The notes below the pieces were generated by a model that made no database searches, was not told the origin of the DNA, and was given only the letters and a program-made list of their open reading frames with translations. A stretch of DNA of 64,000 nucleotides from Sphingobacteriales bacterium JAD_PAG50586_3 (GTDB lineage Bacteria > Bacteroidota > Bacteroidia > CAMBQF01), in NCBI GenBank assembly GCA_023213195.1, contig CP096135.1:124001-188000 (forward strand), given 5' to 3'. The translations under genes and the position numbers were made by a program. Below, piece by piece: positions 55,939 through 61,742 of the stretch. The first letter of the stretch is position 1; every line of letters starts with the position of its first letter.

Positions 55939-56999
55939 TTAGTTTTCAATCGGGTTATTGTAATCCTGCCCTTTAAACTTCTCCTGCGCTGTATCATAAG
56001 CATTTAAAGCATGGCGCATGCGGCTTTTTATTTTGCTTTGCAACCTGCGCGGTGCCAAAACCCTGATAGATTCGCCAAAGCCCAGTATCTCGCGCTCCAA
56101 TTCAAAGTTCCATATTACCTCAATGCTAAAAATCAACCCATCATCTTCCTGCTTTAGCACCTTTTGCGATGAATGCAGCGGCTTGGTTAAAATATAAGGC
56201 ACTGTTCTGTTATCAACCTTTAATACAATTGTAGATGGTAACTGACCCGGCATTTTTGTTACCCCAATACAATCGTTAAAATAGGTACGGGTATCAATAA
56301 TAGTATTCTTAACAAACGGCTCCAGGGTTAGTTCTTTAATATCTACAATGCGGTCTAATGCCATATTTTGCAGTACTTTACCCTTGCGGTTAAGGCCAAG
56401 TAAAAACCAACGGTTGCGGTATTCCTTTAATATATAAGGGTAAATAACCATATCTACCGGCTTTTCTGCTTTAAACGATTGGTATGAAACCTGTAGCGTT
56501 TGCTGTTTAATAATAGCTTTATGCAAAGGCTCTATAAGGTTAATGCCTTTTAACAGTTCATTCTTTTCAAAATCGATATACGTGCGGCCTTTGTTTTTAG
56601 TGCTTTGCACCTTATCCTCCAGGCGGCTTATCATGCCTGTTAATTCATCAAAGTAGCCAAACCCTTTAAACTGCTTTAGAATCTCTACCACCTCGTTAAG
56701 CGTTCCCAAATCTTGCCCCGTAAGGGGAATGTTGGTTATGCTGTAGTTTTTTCTGAATAGGAATAGAACTTCTTGTCAGTAACAGTAATAGGCGCGTTGT
56801 AGCCAAGCTTTTCGCTGCGCATAATCTGTATATCCATTTGTATAGTGCGGCGACTTATGCCTTTGGTAATGCCTTCGTATTCGTACAACGCATCAGCACA
56901 AGCTTCTATTAAATCGTCCAGCGTCCATTTCCTGAAACGGTTTTGCAGGCAGTTATCTATTGTTTTATAACGTATTAAGGCGTGTTTATTTATCGGCAT
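55939..56999 (-). CDS. WYL-domain transcriptional regulator (one frameshift)
   Basis: About 354 residues from the ATG at 56999. The N-terminal winged helix occupies about 1-95 (WTLDDLIEACADALYEYEG, ISRRTIQMDIQIMRSEKLG). A WYL domain follows at about 175-280 (VIYPYILKEYRNRWFLLGLN) with a C-terminal WCX extension. One A is missing from the run at 56747-56752; repaired, the joint reads SEKNYSITNIPLTGQDLG. WYL regulators sense ligands such as nucleic acids and control DNA-damage, RNA-repair and defence genes. It is divergent from the Ro gene, and matching operators sit before both, so autoregulation and control of the repair operon are likely. Confidence 0.85.
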
Positions 57000-57023
57000 G
57001 GTATTTTTTGCAAGGTGACTTAG

Positions 57024-57031
57024 CAAATATA
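57024..57031 (-). promoter_or_regulatory. WYL regulator promoter, -7 box
   Basis: On the minus strand this reads TATATTTG, 24 nt upstream of the ATG at 56999. Confidence 0.65.
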
Positions 57032-57226: not shown

Positions 57227-58746
57227 ATGAAATTTAATTTACTAAAACGGATGACCAACAAAACGGTAAACCACGAGGGCGCAGCTGCTTATAAACTATC
57301 GCCTGAAATGGAGCTGTACAGTGCAGTAGCTACTGCAGGCTTGTCTGACACTTTTTACGAAAAGCAAGGCGACCGTTTACAACGCATACAAGATTTGTTG
57401 GCTAAAACAAACCCTGAGTTTACTGCCCGCCTTGCAGTATATGCACGTAACAACATGAATATGCGCAGTGTGCCTATGGTGTTGGCAGTAGAAATGGCAA
57501 AATTGCAAACCGGCAACTCATTAGTATCTAAAACAGTTAGCGGCGTGGTACAGCGTGCCGATGAAATTGCGGAGTTGCTTGCATACTACCAGCTGGCTAA
57601 CAAACGCGATGGCGCTAAAAAGCTGAACAAGCTATCTAAACAGGTGCAAAAAGGTTTGGCGGTATCGTTCAACAAATTTGATGAGTACCAGTTTGCCAAG
57701 TACAACCGCGCTACAGAGGTTAAATTGCGCGATGCTTTGTTTCTTGTTCACCCTAAAGCTAAAAGCGACGAGCAACAAGCGTTGTTTAACAAAATAGCTA
57801 AAGATGAGTTGGCGGTTCCATATACATGGGAGGTTGAATTATCAAGCTTAGGCCAACAAAAGTTTGAAAACGAGAAAGCGCGTAAAAAAGCTTTTACTGC
57901 CAAGTGGGAAGAGTTGATAGACAGCGGCAAAGTTGGCTACATGGCTATGCTACGCAACTTGCGCAACATACTGGATGCACAAGTATCGTACACCCACATG
58001 GAAAAAGTATGCGCTTACTTAGCCAACGAAAATGCTGTGGCCAAATCAAAGCAATTGCCCTTCCGCTTTTTAGCGGCTTACCGCGAGGTTAAGAAAATGC
58101 AATCGCCATACACATCAATAGTATTAGATGCGTTGGAAGATGCTGTAGCAGCCTCGGCAGCTAACATACAGGGTTTTGATGGTGATACAAGTGTTGTTAT
58201 TGCCTGCGATGTATCATCATCTATGCAGCAACCGGTATCTAAAAAAAGCGCTGTGTTGTTGTACGATGTGGGTTTGATGTTGGGTATGTTGTTGCAAAGC
58301 CGCTGCAAAAAGCAATATCAGGTATGTTTGGCGATACCTGGAAAGTAATAAACATGCCTAAGCGAAACATATTAAGCAATGTTGATGAATACTGCCGCCG
58401 CGAAGGTGAGGTTGGCTACTCTACCAATGGCTACAAGGTAATAGAGAATTTACTTAACTCGCGCACAAAAGCCGACAAAGTAATGATGTTTACCGATGTG
58501 CAAATGTGGAATAGCACCGGTGGTGACCAAACCATACAAAGAGTTTGGGCGAAGTACAAACAGTTTATGCCCAATGCAAAATTGTATTTGTTTGATTTGG
58601 CCGGCCATGGCACAGTGCCATTGCAGGTGCATAACAACGGTGTGTACTTAATAGCCGGTTGGAGCGATAAGGTTTTTGATGTGCTGCACGCATTAGAAAA
58701 CGGCCAAACAGCTATAGGTTACATAAACCAAATAGAGTTAAAATAA
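57227..58746 (+). CDS. Ro60/Rsr homologue, TROVE and vWA domains (one frameshift)
   Basis: About 506 residues after adding one A to the run 58307-58311, which joins LQSRCKKAISGMFGDTWKVI. The TROVE domain (about 10-330) is a HEAT-like ring that binds Y RNA on its outside and misfolded RNA ends in its hole; visible segments are ELYSAVATAGLSDTFYEKQG and FTARLAVYARNNMNMRSVPM. The vWA domain carries the MIDAS motif DVSSSM and later FTDVQMW. Bacterial Rsr works with Y RNA in RNA decay and repair. Here an array of Y-RNA-like units follows 15 nt after the stop, and RNA ligase and kinase-phosphatase lie beyond. Confidence 0.92.
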
Positions 58747-58760
58747 ATAGTAAAGTAAAC

Positions 58761-58903
58761 ACAGCCGCCTGTGCCGTAGGTAATGGATACTTCGTTCACC
58801 TTTAGGTCGCGGGTTCGACTCCCGCTCTCGTTTTAAACGAGGTAGCTCAGGTGGTAGAGCAAAAGCATGTAAGCCCTTTGCCGACTTATTGCCCGGTGGC
58901 TGT
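58761..58903 (+). ncRNA. Y-RNA-like unit 1 with circularly permuted tRNA domain
   Basis: The outer stem is ACAGCCGCC (58761) with GGTGGCTGT (58895). The 5' loop has TGCCGTA, a weak inner stem GGTAA/TTGCC and then TACTTCG. The effector part runs in permuted tRNA order: T arm GCGGG-TTCGACT-CCCGC (58809-58825), acceptor strand TCTCGTT, a 3-nt cap, the pairing strand AACGAGG (58836-58842), TA, and D arm GCTC-AGGTGGTA-GAGC (58845-58860). Bacterial YrlA-type Y RNAs are known to mimic tRNA in this permuted way. TTTT follows the outer stem. Confidence 0.8.
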
Positions 58904-58944
58904 TTTACAATTCGTTCTTTGACAATTTAGTTACCCGTTCCTTG

Positions 58945-59006
58945 TTGCCGGTTCTCAGTATCTCTTATAAAAAATTACAGGGAACAGGGAACTGACAACC
59001 GGGAAC
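58945..59006. repeat. Imperfect inverted repeat between Y units 1 and 2
   Basis: GTTGCCGGTTCTCAGT (58945-58960) pairs with ACTGACAACCGGGAAC (58991-59006) at 14 of 16 positions. It separates unit 1 from the tightly packed units 2-6 and could be a processing site or an inserted palindrome. Confidence 0.5.
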
Positions 59007-59007
59007 T

Positions 59008-59102
59008 AAATAAGGTGCCGTAGGTAAGAGTTACTTCGTTTGGTTGAAGCCCCTTGTGGGTTGGGTTCGAATCCCGTCTTTTACTGCCTTTTGCCCTTAT
59101 TT
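59008..59102 (+). ncRNA. Y-RNA-like unit 2 with T-arm-like domain
   Basis: The outer stem is AAATAAGG/CCTTATTT. The 5' loop is TGCCGTA, the inner stem GTAAGAG/CTTTTAC, then TTACTTCG; the 3' loop is GCCTTTTGC. The effector part has a hairpin CCC-CTTGT-GGG and a T-arm-like GGG-TTCGAAT-CCC, without acceptor stem or D arm. Confidence 0.75.
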
Positions 59103-59126
59103 ATAAAATACTCCGGTTAGGTTATA

Positions 59127-59247
59127 TGCTTAAATGCCGTTGGAATGAGATACTTCGCTACCATTAGGGGCAAGGGTTTCACGTAAGTGATTCGCGGTGC
59201 AAATCCGCACAGGCGTGCCCCACTCATACCGCTTATTGCTTTAAGCA
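59127..59247 (+). ncRNA. Y-RNA-like unit 3 with closed two-hairpin tRNA-like domain
   Basis: The outer stem is TGCTTAAA/TTTAAGCA. The 5' loop is TGCCGTT, the inner stem GGAATGAG/CTCATACC (one mismatch), then ATACTTCG; the 3' loop is GCTTATTGC. A closing stem GGGGCA/TGCCCC holds a hairpin TCAC-GTAA-GTGA with a GNRA loop and a T-arm-like GCGG-TGCAAAT-CCGC. Confidence 0.75.
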
Positions 59248-59353
59248 AACCCAATGGTGTCGTTAACCAAGAGCTACTTCGTGGCATGAGCCCTTCGGGG
59301 CAAGCAGGTTCGAATCCTGTAACCTCTGGTTGCCATTTACCCATTGCCGGTTT
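59248..59353 (+). ncRNA. Y-RNA-like unit 4 with hairpin and T-arm-like domain
   Basis: The outer stem is CAATGG/CCATTG, extended by AACC/GGTT. The 5' loop is TGTCGTT, the inner stem AACC(A)AGAG/CTCTGGTT with one bulged A, then CTACTTCG; the 3' loop is GCCATTTAC. The effector part has GCCC-TTCG-GGGC (UUCG loop) followed by a T arm GCAGG-TTCGAAT-CCTGT. Confidence 0.75.
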
Positions 59354-59371
59354 ACCGTATTGCTTGCCTAT

Positions 59372-59441
59372 AAATAAGGTGCCGTAAACAAAAGATACTT
59401 CGCTTATAATGAACCGCTTTTGTTACCTATCGCCCTTATTT
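59372..59441 (+). ncRNA. Y-RNA-like unit 5, minimal, without tRNA-like domain
   Basis: The outer stem AAATAAGG/CCTTATTT is identical to unit 2. The 5' loop is TGCCGTA, the inner stem AACAAAAG/CTTTTGTT is perfect, then ATACTTCG; the 3' loop is ACCTATCGC. Only about 14 nt remain inside, so this 70-nt unit is a bare Ro-binding-like module. Confidence 0.72.
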
Positions 59442-59460
59442 TAAATTAAAAAACAGTTCC

Positions 59461-59591
59461 ATAATGGTGCCGTAAAACAGGGTTACTTCGACTGTTAATC
59501 GTGATGTCGGGGGTTCGAATCCCTCCTTGGCAGCAATGCCTTGTAGCTCAGTGGTAGAGCACAACGTCTCTGTTTGCTTTTTGCCCATTAT
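59461..59591 (+). ncRNA. Y-RNA-like unit 6 with circularly permuted tRNA-Asn-like domain
   Basis: The outer stem is ATAATGG/CCATTAT. The 5' loop is TGCCGTA, the inner stem AAACAGGG/CTCTGTTT (one G-U), then TTACTTCG; the 3' loop is GCTTTTTGC. The effector begins CGA-CTGTTAA-TCG, which has the form of a tRNA-Asn anticodon loop, then T arm GGGGG-TTCGAAT-CCCTC (59509-59525), acceptor strand CTTGGCA, a GCAA tetraloop, strand TGCCTTG (two T-T mismatches), TA and D arm GCTC-AGTGGTA-GAGC. Confidence 0.8.
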
Positions 59592-59595
59592 ACCT

Positions 59596-59669
59596 TGGCC
59601 CGTAGCTCAGTTGGTTAGAGCACCACTCTTTTAAAGTGGGAGTCCCGCGTTCGAGCCGCGGCGGGCCAA
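59596..59669 (+). tRNA. tRNA-Lys (anticodon UUU)
   Basis: A full cloverleaf: acceptor TGGCCCG/CGGGCCA, TA at 8-9, D arm GCTC...GAGC, anticodon stem CCACT/AGTGG with loop CTTTTAA, T arm CCGCG-TTCGAGC-CGCGG, discriminator A. No CCA is encoded. The acceptor starts U1-A72, unusual for tRNA-Lys. It lies 4 nt after Y unit 6. Confidence 0.85.
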
Positions 59670-59672
59670 CAT

Positions 59673-59745
59673 TGGCCTATAGCTCAGGTTGATTAGAGCA
59701 CTGTCCCTTGGGCTGGAGACCCGGGTTTGAATCCCGGTAGGCCAA
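59673..59745 (+). tRNA. tRNA-like gene, anticodon not assignable
   Basis: Acceptor TGGCCTA/TAGGCCA, TA at 8-9, D arm GCTC-AGGTTGATTA-GAGC and T arm CCGGG-TTTGAAT-CCCGG are perfect. The 20 nt between D and T arms (CTGTCCCTTGGGCTGGAGAC) do not form a 5-bp anticodon stem with a 7-nt loop. Either a base is lost in the assembly or the molecule is not a decoding tRNA. The acceptor is again U1-A72. Confidence 0.6.
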
Positions 59746-59750
59746 TACAT

Positions 59751-59823
59751 TCCACGGTAGCAAAGCCGGTCTATGCGGCGGACTGAAAATCCGTAGATGT
59801 TGGTTCAACCCCAACCCGTGGAA
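59751..59823 (+). tRNA. tRNA-Phe (anticodon GAA)
   Basis: Acceptor TCCACGG/CCGTGGA (U1-A72), TA at 8-9, a short D stem GCA/TGC with a large loop, anticodon stem GCGGA/TCCGT with loop CTGAAAA, T arm GTTGG-TTCAACC-CCAAC. No CCA is encoded. It lies 29 nt upstream of the RNA ligase start. Confidence 0.75.
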
Positions 59824-59852
59824 CATTAATTAATAGTTTAATTTTGAACGTT

Positions 59853-60872
59853 ATGTTTGAGCCAACGCTTTTACAAGAAATGATTGAGCAGGGGTATGTG
59901 GTGGTGCAAAAACACCCACATGCCAACCTGTTTATATACAACTACTCGGCAAAAGCCCAGTACGACCGTGTGTGGAACGATGTTACCCTGCATTGCCGTG
60001 GGCTGATACTGGATGAAAACCAAAATGTAGTAGCCCGCCCGTTTAAAAAATTCTTTAACCTGGGCGAGCATGAAAACCAGGTAATACCTAACGAAACCTT
60101 TGAGGTGTATGAGAAAATGGACGGCTCTTTGGGTATACTATATTGGCATAACAACGCGCCATTTATTGCTACACGTGGCTCATTTACCAGCATACAATCA
60201 GCAAAAGCAAATGAAATACTGAATACCCATTATGCACATTTACTAGATGGCTTAGATAAAAACAATACGTACCTGTTTGAGATTATATACCCAGAAAACC
60301 GCATAGTGGTTGATTATGGTACAACAGAAGACCTTATTCTTTTATCGGTTATAGATAAACAAACGGGTAATGATGTAGCTATTGATAATTGGGGCTTTAA
60401 AACGGTAAAAAAATACGATGGCATAAATGATATACAAGCCTTGGCCGCATTGGAAGAAGACAATAAAGAAGGCTTTGTAATTTGCTTTGCATCGGGCTTG
60501 CGCTATAAGGTTAAGTTTGCAGAGTATGTACGTATACACCGCATTATAACACAGGTATCAACCATTAGCATTTGGGAGTATTTAAAAGAAGGCCAATCGC
60601 TAAATGAACTGATAGAACGCGTACCCGATGAGTTTTATGATTGGGTAAAGAAGACCAACGCAGGTTTACTACAAGCCTTTGCCACTATTGAAGCGCAGGC
60701 GAAAGCCGATTTTAAAATTTTAGAAACAAGAAAAGAAACAGCATTGTATTTTATGCAATGTAAATATCCAACGGTTTTGTTTAATATGCTGGATGGGCGC
60801 GATTATTCGCAAGCTATCTGGAAGATGCTCCGTCCGCAGTACTCAAGACCATTTATGAATATTGAAGAATGA
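59853..60872 (+). CDS. T4 Rnl1-type RNA ligase
   Basis: A 339-residue ATP-dependent RNA ligase of the T4 Rnl1 family. The adenylated lysine is in motif I EKMDGSLGILY. Upstream lies the Rnl1-type CRGLILDENQNVVARPFKKF with FNLGE, and motifs III-V are visible as YLFEIIYPENRIVVDYG, EGFVICFASG and RYKVKFAEY. Such ligases seal tRNAs cut in the anticodon loop after end healing. I start at ATG 59853 rather than TTG 59844. The end overlaps the kinase-phosphatase start (ATGA). Confidence 0.9.
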   Translation: MFEPTLLQEMIEQGYVVVQKHPHANLFIYNYSAKAQYDRVWNDVTLHCRGLILDENQNVVARPFKKFFNLGEHENQVIPNETFEVYEKMDGSLGILYWHNNAPFIATRGSFTSIQSAKANEILNTHYAHLLDGLDKNNTYLFEIIYPENRIVVDYGTTEDLILLSVIDKQTGNDVAIDNWGFKTVKKYDGINDIQALAALEEDNKEGFVICFASGLRYKVKFAEYVRIHRIITQVSTISIWEYLKEGQSLNELIERVPDEFYDWVKKTNAGLLQAFATIEAQAKADFKILETRKETALYFMQCKYPTVLFNMLDGRDYSQAIWKMLRPQYSRPFMNIEE

Positions 60873-61742
60873 AAAAAGTAATATTAATGCGTGGCTTGCC
60901 CGGCAGTGGTAAAAGCACGTACGCTAAGCAATTGGTAGATGATAACCCGGGAATGTATAAGCGCATAAACCGCGACGATTTACGTGCCATGTTTGATAAT
61001 GGCATTACCAACAACAGCAACGAAAAGTTTATTAAGCAGGTGCGCGACATGCTTATTGTTAAAGCCTTGGCAGACGGCAAGCATGTTATTGTTGACGATA
61101 CTAATCTGTCTGAAACCAACGAAACCCGCATAAAGCAACTGGTACACCAGTTTAATAAAGAGCATAACGATAGTGTAGCTGTTGAGGTAAAAGAGATGGA
61201 AACATCTTTAGAGGAATCGTTGGCGCGCGATGCTAAGCGGGAAAAACCGGTGGGCGATAAAGTTATACGCCAAATGCACCGGCAGTTTTATGCCCGTACT
61301 GTAGACTATGTGCAGCAGGATGAAAGCCTGCCCAAAGCACTAATGTGCGATTTAGATGGCACTTTGGCCATACTTGGCAAGCGTGGACCGTTTGATGAGC
61401 ATTTGTGCGAGAGCGACGACTTAAATAAGCCTGTAGCAAACGTATTACTTACCTATGCAGCGTTAGGTTATAAAATATTGCTACTATCGGGCCGCAGGGA
61501 TAGTTCCCGTGTGCAAACAGAAAACTGGCTAAAAACATATAACATACCATACGAGGTATTGCTTATGCGTGCGGCTAAAGATGCCCGGAAAGATTCTATT
61601 GTAAAGCGCGAAATATTTGACCAACATGTTGCAGGCAAATACTTTGTAGAGTTTGTTTTAGACGACCGCGACCAAGGTAGTAGATATGTGGCGCACAGAG
61701 CTGGGCCTGCCATGCTTTCAGGTTAATTATGGTAATTTTTAA
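60869..61742 (+). CDS. pnkp: T4-type polynucleotide kinase-phosphatase (one frameshift)
   Basis: About 290 residues with the domain order of T4 Pnkp: N-terminal 5' kinase with P-loop RGLPGSGKST and VDDTNLSETNETRI, then a C-terminal HAD 3' phosphatase with CDLDGTLAILGKRGPFD and LLLSGRRDSSR. An extra G at 61676-61677 breaks the end; removed, it reads DQVVDMWRTELGLPCFQVNY and stops at 61740-61742. The enzyme converts 2',3'-cyclic phosphate and 5'-OH ends into ends that Rnl1 can seal. It is the last gene of the operon. Confidence 0.9.

Follow-up and report, generated by a model that had tools for sequence, protein, structure and literature searches.

The window analysed here, 64,000 nucleotides from Sphingobacteriales bacterium JAD_PAG50586_3, is part of a single 4.16-Mb contig. 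From position 57227, and all on the plus strand, it encodes a Ro/TROVE gene, six RNA units, three tRNA-type genes, an Rnl1-type RNA ligase and a Pnkp-type kinase-phosphatase. An earlier note on this DNA had described an array of Y-RNA-like units inside a Ro-ligase-kinase operon, a description supported by the Pfam domains of the proteins (TROVE, RNA_lig_T4_1, AAA_33 and HAD_PNKP) and by their structure matches. We are highly confident that the locus is a Ro-linked array of Y-like RNAs.

The six consecutive units are of one architecture and occupy positions 58764-59592, within a few bases of the limits given previously. In each, a 6-8-bp outer helix is followed by a bulged U, two further pairs, an internal loop (5' side CGTA or CGTT), an inner helix of 6-8 bp, the sequence TACTTCG, a variable head and the 3' strands. 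The bulged U and the two extra pairs after the outer stem are additions to the earlier description; the stems, the invariant TACTTCG, the 3' loops and the 5' loops (TGCCGTA in units 1, 2, 5 and 6, TGCCGTT in unit 3 and TGTCGTT in unit 4) are as it gave them. The motif GTGYCGTNN{4,11}TACTTCG occurs five times in the entire genome, always inside the array, and a looser form with TGYCGT occurs seven times, in the six units and at one place elsewhere. On these counts, the array is more than a chance occurrence.

The units differ in their heads, which we sorted into classes. Units 1 (58764..58900, 104.6 bits) and 6 (59460..59592, 114.6 bits) are of class P, with a permuted tRNA head comprising T arm, acceptor and D arm. 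Scores in brackets are for a covariance model, R1, built from 26 P units (alignment A2, described below); units 1 and 6 were members of its training set and the other units were not. Unit 2 (59008..59102, 50.7 bits) is of class V/T and has a hairpin and a T arm without a D arm. Unit 4 (59250..59348, 28.3 bits, E 7e-6), of the same class, was recognized from sequence and fold, and carries a variable-arm-like hairpin and a T arm. Unit 5 (59372..59441, 52.5 bits) is of class 0, a Ro-type helix without a head. Unit 3 (59127..59247) is of class M; it has no R1 match and was characterized by alignment A1 and pair counts as having a D-armless tRNA-like head with GGGG/CCCC strands and a proposed short pseudoknot. 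All six are on the plus strand. In the window R1 also spans a tRNA pair (59629-59710, 29.5 bits).

Covariation and linkage to Ro

For comparison we used the best 80 of 213 Ro loci as relatives and extended the locus survey to 91 loci (L144, on the same contig as L031, was omitted from this set). The unit detector gave 333 matches, of which four were judged spurious (window 40887, L045 162, L051 12274 and L057 5525). The resulting 329 units come from the window and 79 of the 80 relatives' loci. The sole relative without units, L076, has a stretch that ends shortly after Ro.

The earlier note had made its reading depend on covariation in homologous loci, and this is strong. Units were chosen by eye for diversity and aligned with MAFFT, 26 of the 115 distinct P units in A2 and 25 of the 41 distinct M units in A1. 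RNAalifold recovered both stem helices, the bulge and the T arm in each alignment, and additionally the acceptor and D arm in P. Compensatory changes were identified at 27 of 34 predicted pairs in P and at 22 of 30 in M. The covariation scores are 0.639 for P and 0.568 for M, versus 0.217 and 0.221 for shuffled alignments, and none of 500 shuffles reached either score.

The second pair after the bulge can be followed through all 329 units. It is C:G in 143, T:A in 150, T:G in 24 and C:A in none, and the other 12 include combinations that are again complementary (A with TC twice, G with CC once). The detector rewarded the 3' ends GC and AC and was blind to the 5' base. Fisher's test of this association gives p 4e-65, a value that is overstated since the units are related. 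As in Y RNAs, the ends of each unit form a helix with a bulge and internal loop, and both the helix and the bulge-adjacent pair covary. The common bulged helix is predicted to bind the neighbouring Ro ring.

The units are closely linked to Ro. Over the 80 relatives' loci the detector placed 320 units 1.4-5.6 kb past the Ro start and on its strand, with six elsewhere on that strand and four on the opposite strand. Units lie downstream of Ro in 89 of the 91 loci, as expected of Y RNA genes (87 have two or more, two have one, and the remaining two, L076 and G076, have none). The number per locus ranges from 0 to 9 and is most often 3 or 4, and thus the six units of the window, earlier presented as undescribed, are not exceptional for this group.

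We ran R1 on 247 Bacteroidota genomes with strict filters, scoring 13 candidates per genome, and searched the same genomes for TROVE. Ro is present in 19 of them. All 26 matches of at least 53.7 bits are full-length and lie within 2.2 kb of a Ro match, in 18 of the 19 Ro genomes; two of the 26 are the training units of the window. R1 also gives many partial matches (model positions 26-118 or 31-118), which we take to be neighbouring tRNA gene pairs. The earlier note had raised the prospect of model hits unlinked to Ro. The high-scoring full-length matches give no such hits, and the lower-scoring ones do, falling on tRNA pairs and in genomes without Ro. By itself the motif often arises by chance, being found in 119 of 197 genomes, so that clusters alone are informative; the six clusters among the matches listed are all by a Ro gene. 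Viral contigs have a single match to the exact motif per contig among those listed, as chance would give.

The arrangement varies in a few genomes. Unit matches in G276 lie upstream of Ro. In G076, a tRNA-Asp gene just past Ro is followed by a phage-type integrase gene (L142 2872-4375), and the array is 25 kb downstream (L269, G076:C4:212500-218500), with seven motif matches and eight units by the detector. It seems that an element has inserted itself into this Ro locus.

Heads of the units

What had been described as a variable insert is indeed variable, and in most units it is also tRNA-like, as in known YrlA RNAs, a feature that had been missed. Rule-based sorting of the 329 units gave 145 of class P (117 with a standard D arm and 28 with another), 51 of class T+hp, 49 of class 0, 43 of class M, 11 of class V/T, 7 of class S and 5 of class R. 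The T+hp class contains both D-armless permuted heads and some P heads in which the rules missed the D arm.

In P heads the tRNA body is permuted, so that the T arm comes first, followed by the acceptor with a short closing loop and then the D arm. The permuted tRNA-like domain typical of YrlA is present in units 1 and 6 and absent from units 2-5. The Rfam YrlA model (RF02553) matches unit 1 (40.7 bits at 58801-58864, E 2.7e-7), unit 6 (38.8 bits over the whole model, E 9.8e-7) and P units of L097 and L109. Best scores are 33-42 bits versus a cut-off of 69 bits, at which there is no match in the window or in 11 relatives' loci. Because units 1 and 6 score below the cut-off, we place these RNAs in a distinct, Y-RNA-like subfamily, outside RF02553 as now modelled.

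P heads also retain traces of an anticodon arm. Of the five bases that follow the D arm, a mean of 3.57 pair with the five before the variable region (taken as 4 or 5 nt, whichever paired better), versus 2.17 (standard deviation 0.12) with partners shuffled; for the 45 distinct stems the values are 3.58 and 2.18. The seven bases before the 3' strand of this stem resemble tRNA positions 32-38, with U33 in 73%, A37 in 73%, A38 in 82% and a varied triplet between, as counted in 60 of 70 distinct heads (in the 10 left out, the loop overlapped TACTTCG). U33 and a purine at 37 occur together in 34 of the 60 loops. The Chryseobacterium units are closely related, so these counts are not independent. 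Examples are TTGTGGT in L087 (as in tRNA-His), CTCATAA in L105 (tRNA-Met) and CTGTCAC in L099 (tRNA-Asp). Unit 6 has CTGTTAA at 59492-59498, as in the anticodon loop of tRNA-Asn(GTT) of the same genome. The Ro-type helix of P units is located between tRNA positions 31 and 32. Given the stem pairing and the loop signature, this helix therefore stands where a tRNA broken 5' of position 32 would open.

A related arrangement may exist in phages. We identified Ro-like proteins in 93 phage records by tblastn. In crAss001 (L524 5905-6500) and cr106_1 (L525 7350-7690), an unannotated stretch after TROVE has Y-like units bearing TTACTTCA. The tRNA body in this stretch (GGAGGGA...TCCCTCC) is unpermuted, with the Y-like core inside the anticodon arm. 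It folds with acceptor, D and T arms, and a second crAss001 body folds with acceptor and T arm. The z-scores of these folds are modest (-1.4 to -1.9), the R1 scores are low (18-20 bits), and only two related records are involved; we treat the unpermuted Y-like tRNA bodies as a lead.

The other head classes are more diverse. In unit 3 the GGGG/CCCC strands enclose a hairpin and a T arm. We propose that M units form a pseudoknot in which the G of TACTTCG and the bases following it pair with the stretch just before the C strand. Of the five pairs named for it, the middle three form in 24, 24 and 20 of the 25 aligned units, with compensatory changes seen at two of these three; the outer two form in only 6 and 9 units. 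RNAalifold unaided gave a different pairing for this region. The GGGG/CCCC strands, which are nearly invariant in M units, are predicted to pair. The hairpin and T arm of units 2 and 4 look, in our reading, like the 3' part of a tRNA with a long variable arm.

A long head that begins like 23S rRNA was identified in five loci (L066 10723, L095 5193 with a looser match, L097 10532, L107 10338 and L109 9614). In the L109 head, 33 bases recur exactly at a second site in its own genome (E 4.5e-10) and at a site in the L097 genome, these being the two genomes searched. Both places are 23S rRNA according to Rfam, and the stretch copied is presumably the helix 69-71 region. The class S head (TTTAGA..TCTAA...TGCATGTCT) recurs in Chryseobacterium (L061 7953, L066 10305, L080 9217, L109 9201 and others). 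A search for its parent RNA gave nothing better than 34.6 bits (E 0.019) elsewhere in the same genome, which is not a good match, and no Rfam family fitted convincingly. Several head classes co-occur in single arrays and recur across genera, which suggests that they have different partners.

Neighbouring proteins and extra tRNA genes

The Ro/TROVE protein is encoded at 57227..58746 (plus strand) in two overlapping frames (57227-58348 and 58324-58746), the first with a TROVE match of 1.8e-33. It resembles the solved TROVE proteins 9l5y and 9kop. In the relatives looked at, Ro is a single unbroken frame of at least 505 amino acids. A divergent WYL/WCX regulator at 55939..57026 (minus strand) is likewise in two frames. 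Its domain matches (WCX 1.9e-12, WYL 1.1e-11) are confined to the frame at 55939-56709, and the frame at 56736-57026 has no Pfam match. The splits, at 58300-58350 in Ro and 56700-56760 in the regulator, are within 2 kb of each other and may be assembly errors or real.

Downstream of the array, a T4 Rnl1-type RNA ligase (59844..60872, plus strand) was identified by PF09511 (RNA_lig_T4_1, 7.1e-19) and a match to the T4 RNA ligase 1 structure 2c5u (4e-16). It adjoins a polynucleotide kinase with a HAD-type phosphatase (60869..61726, plus strand; PF13671, AAA_33, 4.2e-20; PF25109, HAD_PNKP, 1.2e-37) that matches Pnkp1 4xrp (3.8e-48) and T4 Pnk 1ltq (1.1e-33). Thus, the window contains a repair pair of the T4 tRNA type, an Rnl1-family ligase next to a kinase-phosphatase. 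Neither RtcB nor RtcR was identified among the six window frames scanned, and the window does not have the arrangement of an rtcBA operon.

Our survey of neighbours sees relatives of the query proteins in the available stretch, up to about 7 kb downstream. Within it, RtcB is present in 28 of the 91 loci, Rnl1 in 6, Pnkp in 4, and an RNA_ligase-family enzyme in one, together with Rnl1; at least one ligase was identified in 34. The ligase-kinase context noted earlier is therefore real in the window and is not the usual one for the group. A Band-7 protein occurs in one locus (L138) and a divergent WYL gene in 32. In L095 (3581-11522, Xanthocytophaga), units and tRNA genes flank Ro on both sides, and two different RNA ligases (PF09414 and PF09511) are encoded consecutively. 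A role for BoxA-type antitermination signals was rejected: the motif [CT]TCTTTGA precedes the first unit by no more than 250 nt in 5 of 89 loci and also occurs at 58915 in the window, and it is not enriched (0.07 versus 0.08 per kb).

The three tRNA-type genes between unit 6 and the ligase (59596-59824, all plus strand) were not in the earlier note. An extra tRNA-Lys(TTT) at 59596..59670 and an extra tRNA-Phe(GAA) at 59751..59824 have 61-71% identity to the chromosomal copies, with the same anticodon loop and a different anticodon stem. The tRNA-like gene between them (59672..59746) has a poorly formed anticodon arm; ARAGORN calls it Lys(ctt) at 42 bits, an uncertain assignment. The matching cluster in L031 comprises Lys, Phe and Pro(TGG), and we guess a Pro origin for the middle gene.

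ARAGORN finds tRNA genes 1.4-5.7 kb after the Ro start in 11 of the 91 loci. The only call in L056 overlaps units and looks spurious, as do single calls in L139 and L095; the call in L087 may be an ordinary gene. The most extensive set is in G083 (L147, C86:65369-70070), where 23 of the genome's 58 tRNA genes (25 by Rfam) lie on the Ro strand within 6 kb after Ro. They cover 19 amino acids, all but Cys. Fourteen stand within or beside the array and nine lie past a serpin gene on the opposite strand; one of the 23 overlaps a unit.

The extra tRNAs of G083 have a mean identity of 69% to chromosomal tRNAs with the same anticodon, and share the loop in 10 of 20 comparisons and the anticodon stem in none of 20. 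In Chryseobacterium G001, an array of 16 genes some 12 kb upstream of Ro (L241, G001:C17:195900-198700) gives 66%, with loops shared in 3 of 14 and stems in 0 of 14. Chromosomal tRNAs compared between families have 81-83% identity, with loops shared in 25 of 28, 22 of 28 and 19 of 26 and stems in 3 of 28, 12 of 28 and 4 of 26 (tRNA-Met pairs were left out of all these comparisons). Diverged arrays were also observed 1-5 kb upstream of Ro in L061 (1292-3290, 16 genes), L067 (1983-3039, 8 genes) and L105 (4506-4920, 4 genes). The L061 and L241 arrays are 90% alike; in all, upstream arrays of 4-16 genes occur in four genomes, about 1-14 kb from Ro. Most of the 43 loci (of the best 80 relatives') that were scanned whole for tRNAs have no such array.

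Judged by sequence, the extra tRNAs look functional (up to 75 bits in G083), yet they differ from their own genome's set more than sets differ between families. Phage-encoded extra tRNAs have been proposed (PMC10264068, PMC11555353) to survive or offset anticodon nucleases, with changed anticodon loops in the first. By analogy, we infer that the extra tRNAs here may resist nucleases.

Interpretation and relation to known systems

On balance, we lean towards a role for the six units as swappable adaptors on Ro, which would act as an RNA-repair scaffold, with the mostly tRNA-like heads docking enzymes that cut, mend or degrade tRNA. The array would be transcribed as one RNA and then cut into units, and Ro would bind the common helix of each. 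Docked enzymes could be the neighbouring ligase and kinase, PNPase, or an invading anticodon nuclease, with the P head possibly mimicking a tRNA opened in its anticodon arm. The WYL regulator might lift repression upon RNA damage, and the diverged tRNA genes could be spares while the regular tRNAs are cut.

Several observations weigh against this adaptor role. Among the 91 loci, 57, including all 45 of Chryseobacterium, showed none of the ligase kinds searched for in the stretch of up to about 7 kb downstream, so synteny does not carry a repair role everywhere. Class 0 units have no head with which to dock. The rules left 18 of the 329 units unsorted, several of them visibly P or S, and isoacceptor assignment of the non-standard D arms is ambiguous. 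In the anticodon-like loops, U is also found in 43-53% at position 32 and at positions 34-36. The detector is lenient, as halves swapped between motifs still give an acceptable 3' side in a mean of 103 of 370 cases (28%), versus 334 of 370 for real pairs under a slightly looser rule; the covariation tests carry more weight for that reason. Linkage of R1 matches to Ro is also imperfect. The 19th Ro genome (G225) has just two full-length matches, of 45 bits, beside Ro; the next match after the 26 best (53.3 bits, partial, model positions 26-118) is in a genome without Ro; and full-length matches of 36-48 bits (top 47.6) occur in at least seven genomes without Ro.

The tRNA-like heads could instead be decoys that occupy tRNA- or rRNA-cutting toxins as competitive inhibitors, with Ro only stabilizing the RNAs. 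The retention of U33 and A37/A38 in P heads, the copying of 33 nt of host 23S rRNA in one class, and the altered anticodon stems of the extra tRNAs near some loci are as expected for decoys, and Hughes et al. 2020 (PMC7790460) raise the possibility that YrlA competitively inhibits the nuclease. We nevertheless think this rather unlikely, as no anticodon loop was recognized in classes M, T+hp, V/T, 0 and S, the anticodon stem of P heads is imperfect and opened by the Ro-type helix, and no toxin is known for these loci. A role in RNA decay, in which the units tether Ro to PNPase in a RYPER-like complex for broken tRNA and rRNA and the diversity of heads reflects drift of one PNPase-binding module, seems improbable. 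Such tethering is known for a Deinococcus Y RNA (PMC8394870, PMC8058203), but the head classes recur and co-occur instead of drifting at random, and include an empty and a 23S-derived class.

The P units might also be precursors from permuted tRNA genes that lose the Ro-type helix and have their halves sealed by the operon's ligase, yielding working tRNAs. Their 3' half does precede the 5' half, with the loop signature and a partial anticodon stem, and RNA ligases neighbour the loci in the number given above. We consider this very unlikely given that the stem pairs at just 3.57 of 5 positions, that only 34 of the 60 loops combine U33 with a purine at 37, that the genome already has regular tRNAs, and that M, 0, S and R units cannot yield tRNAs. 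Least credible of all is that the heads are functionless tRNA fragments trapped in a repetitive noncoding region. Nearby tRNA genes could seed such pieces, but we rejected this explanation on the covariation, as compensatory changes extend across genera, and the 26 best R1 matches are all beside Ro.

A further scheme is conceivable, and we advance it only tentatively. The locus may be a chromosomal counter-system to tRNA-cutting attack, in which the Ro ring would present mimics of toxin-cut RNAs (opened tRNAs with different anticodons, a D-armless tRNA, a T arm and a 23S piece), the ligase would mend the genuine RNAs, and translation would meanwhile be sustained by a second, deeply diverged set of tRNAs that is nearly complete in some species. 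In this scheme the anticodon arms of tRNAs would have received the Ro helix by grafting, with the tRNA parts permuted in bacteria and in their normal order in crAss-like phages.

What is understood of bacterial Y RNAs comes from a small number of RNAs and species. The family described here provides hundreds of natural variants in which the Ro-type helix is constant and the heads are exchangeable, and the function of Y RNA heads is for this reason directly testable by swapping them. Should the spare tRNAs function in the proposed way, bacteria may resemble phages in carrying nuclease-resistant tRNAs, here as sets near RNA repair genes.

Circularly permuted tRNA genes of algae and archaea have the 3' half before the 5' half. 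The P units share this order, and their anticodon arm bears a Ro-type helix; the comparison with such genes covered gene order, stem and loop signature. The RNA repair systems of Burroughs and Aravind (2016) reportedly combine Ro and Y RNA with varied ligases and with kinase and phosphatase modules, as here, and a Band-7 protein in L138 is a further shared feature; that work is not known to describe arrays with differing heads or second tRNA sets. Like YrlA (RF02553), the units adjoin Ro and have an end-to-end helix, an internal loop and an inner helix, followed in P units by T arm, acceptor and D arm in permuted order. Unlike YrlA, their TGYCGT...TACTTCG core departs from the Rfam consensus, they occur in arrays of up to nine, several of their heads are not permuted tRNAs, and they retain the signature of an anticodon loop.

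Beside Ro and ligases, Y RNAs that have a permuted tRNA-like domain are known (PMC8394870, PMC7790460). According to the first of these papers, Rsr is tethered to PNPase by Y RNA, and TruB and DusA act on YrlA as a substrate. The Salmonella rsr-yrlBA-rtcBA RNA repair operon, as described in PMC7790460, also has Ro, Y RNAs and an RNA ligase in one locus, and RtcB is found in 28 of our 91 loci too. Unlike that operon, the window has Rnl1 and Pnkp in place of RtcB and RtcA, a WYL gene in place of RtcR, six units, and three tRNA-type genes. The extra tRNAs differ from those of phages in being on bacterial chromosomes near Ro arrays, and in diverging across the whole molecule and in every anticodon stem compared. 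Full-text literature searches, which did not reach the core papers on bacterial Y RNAs and Ro repair operons, listed no paper whose title or opening abstract lines report arrays of Y RNAs with differing heads, or a second set of tRNAs next to Ro. As far as these searches show, the new features are arrays of up to nine units, seven unit classes (one of which copies 33 nt of the host's 23S rRNA), permuted heads that retain an anticodon-loop signature, and strongly diverged extra tRNA genes near some of the loci.

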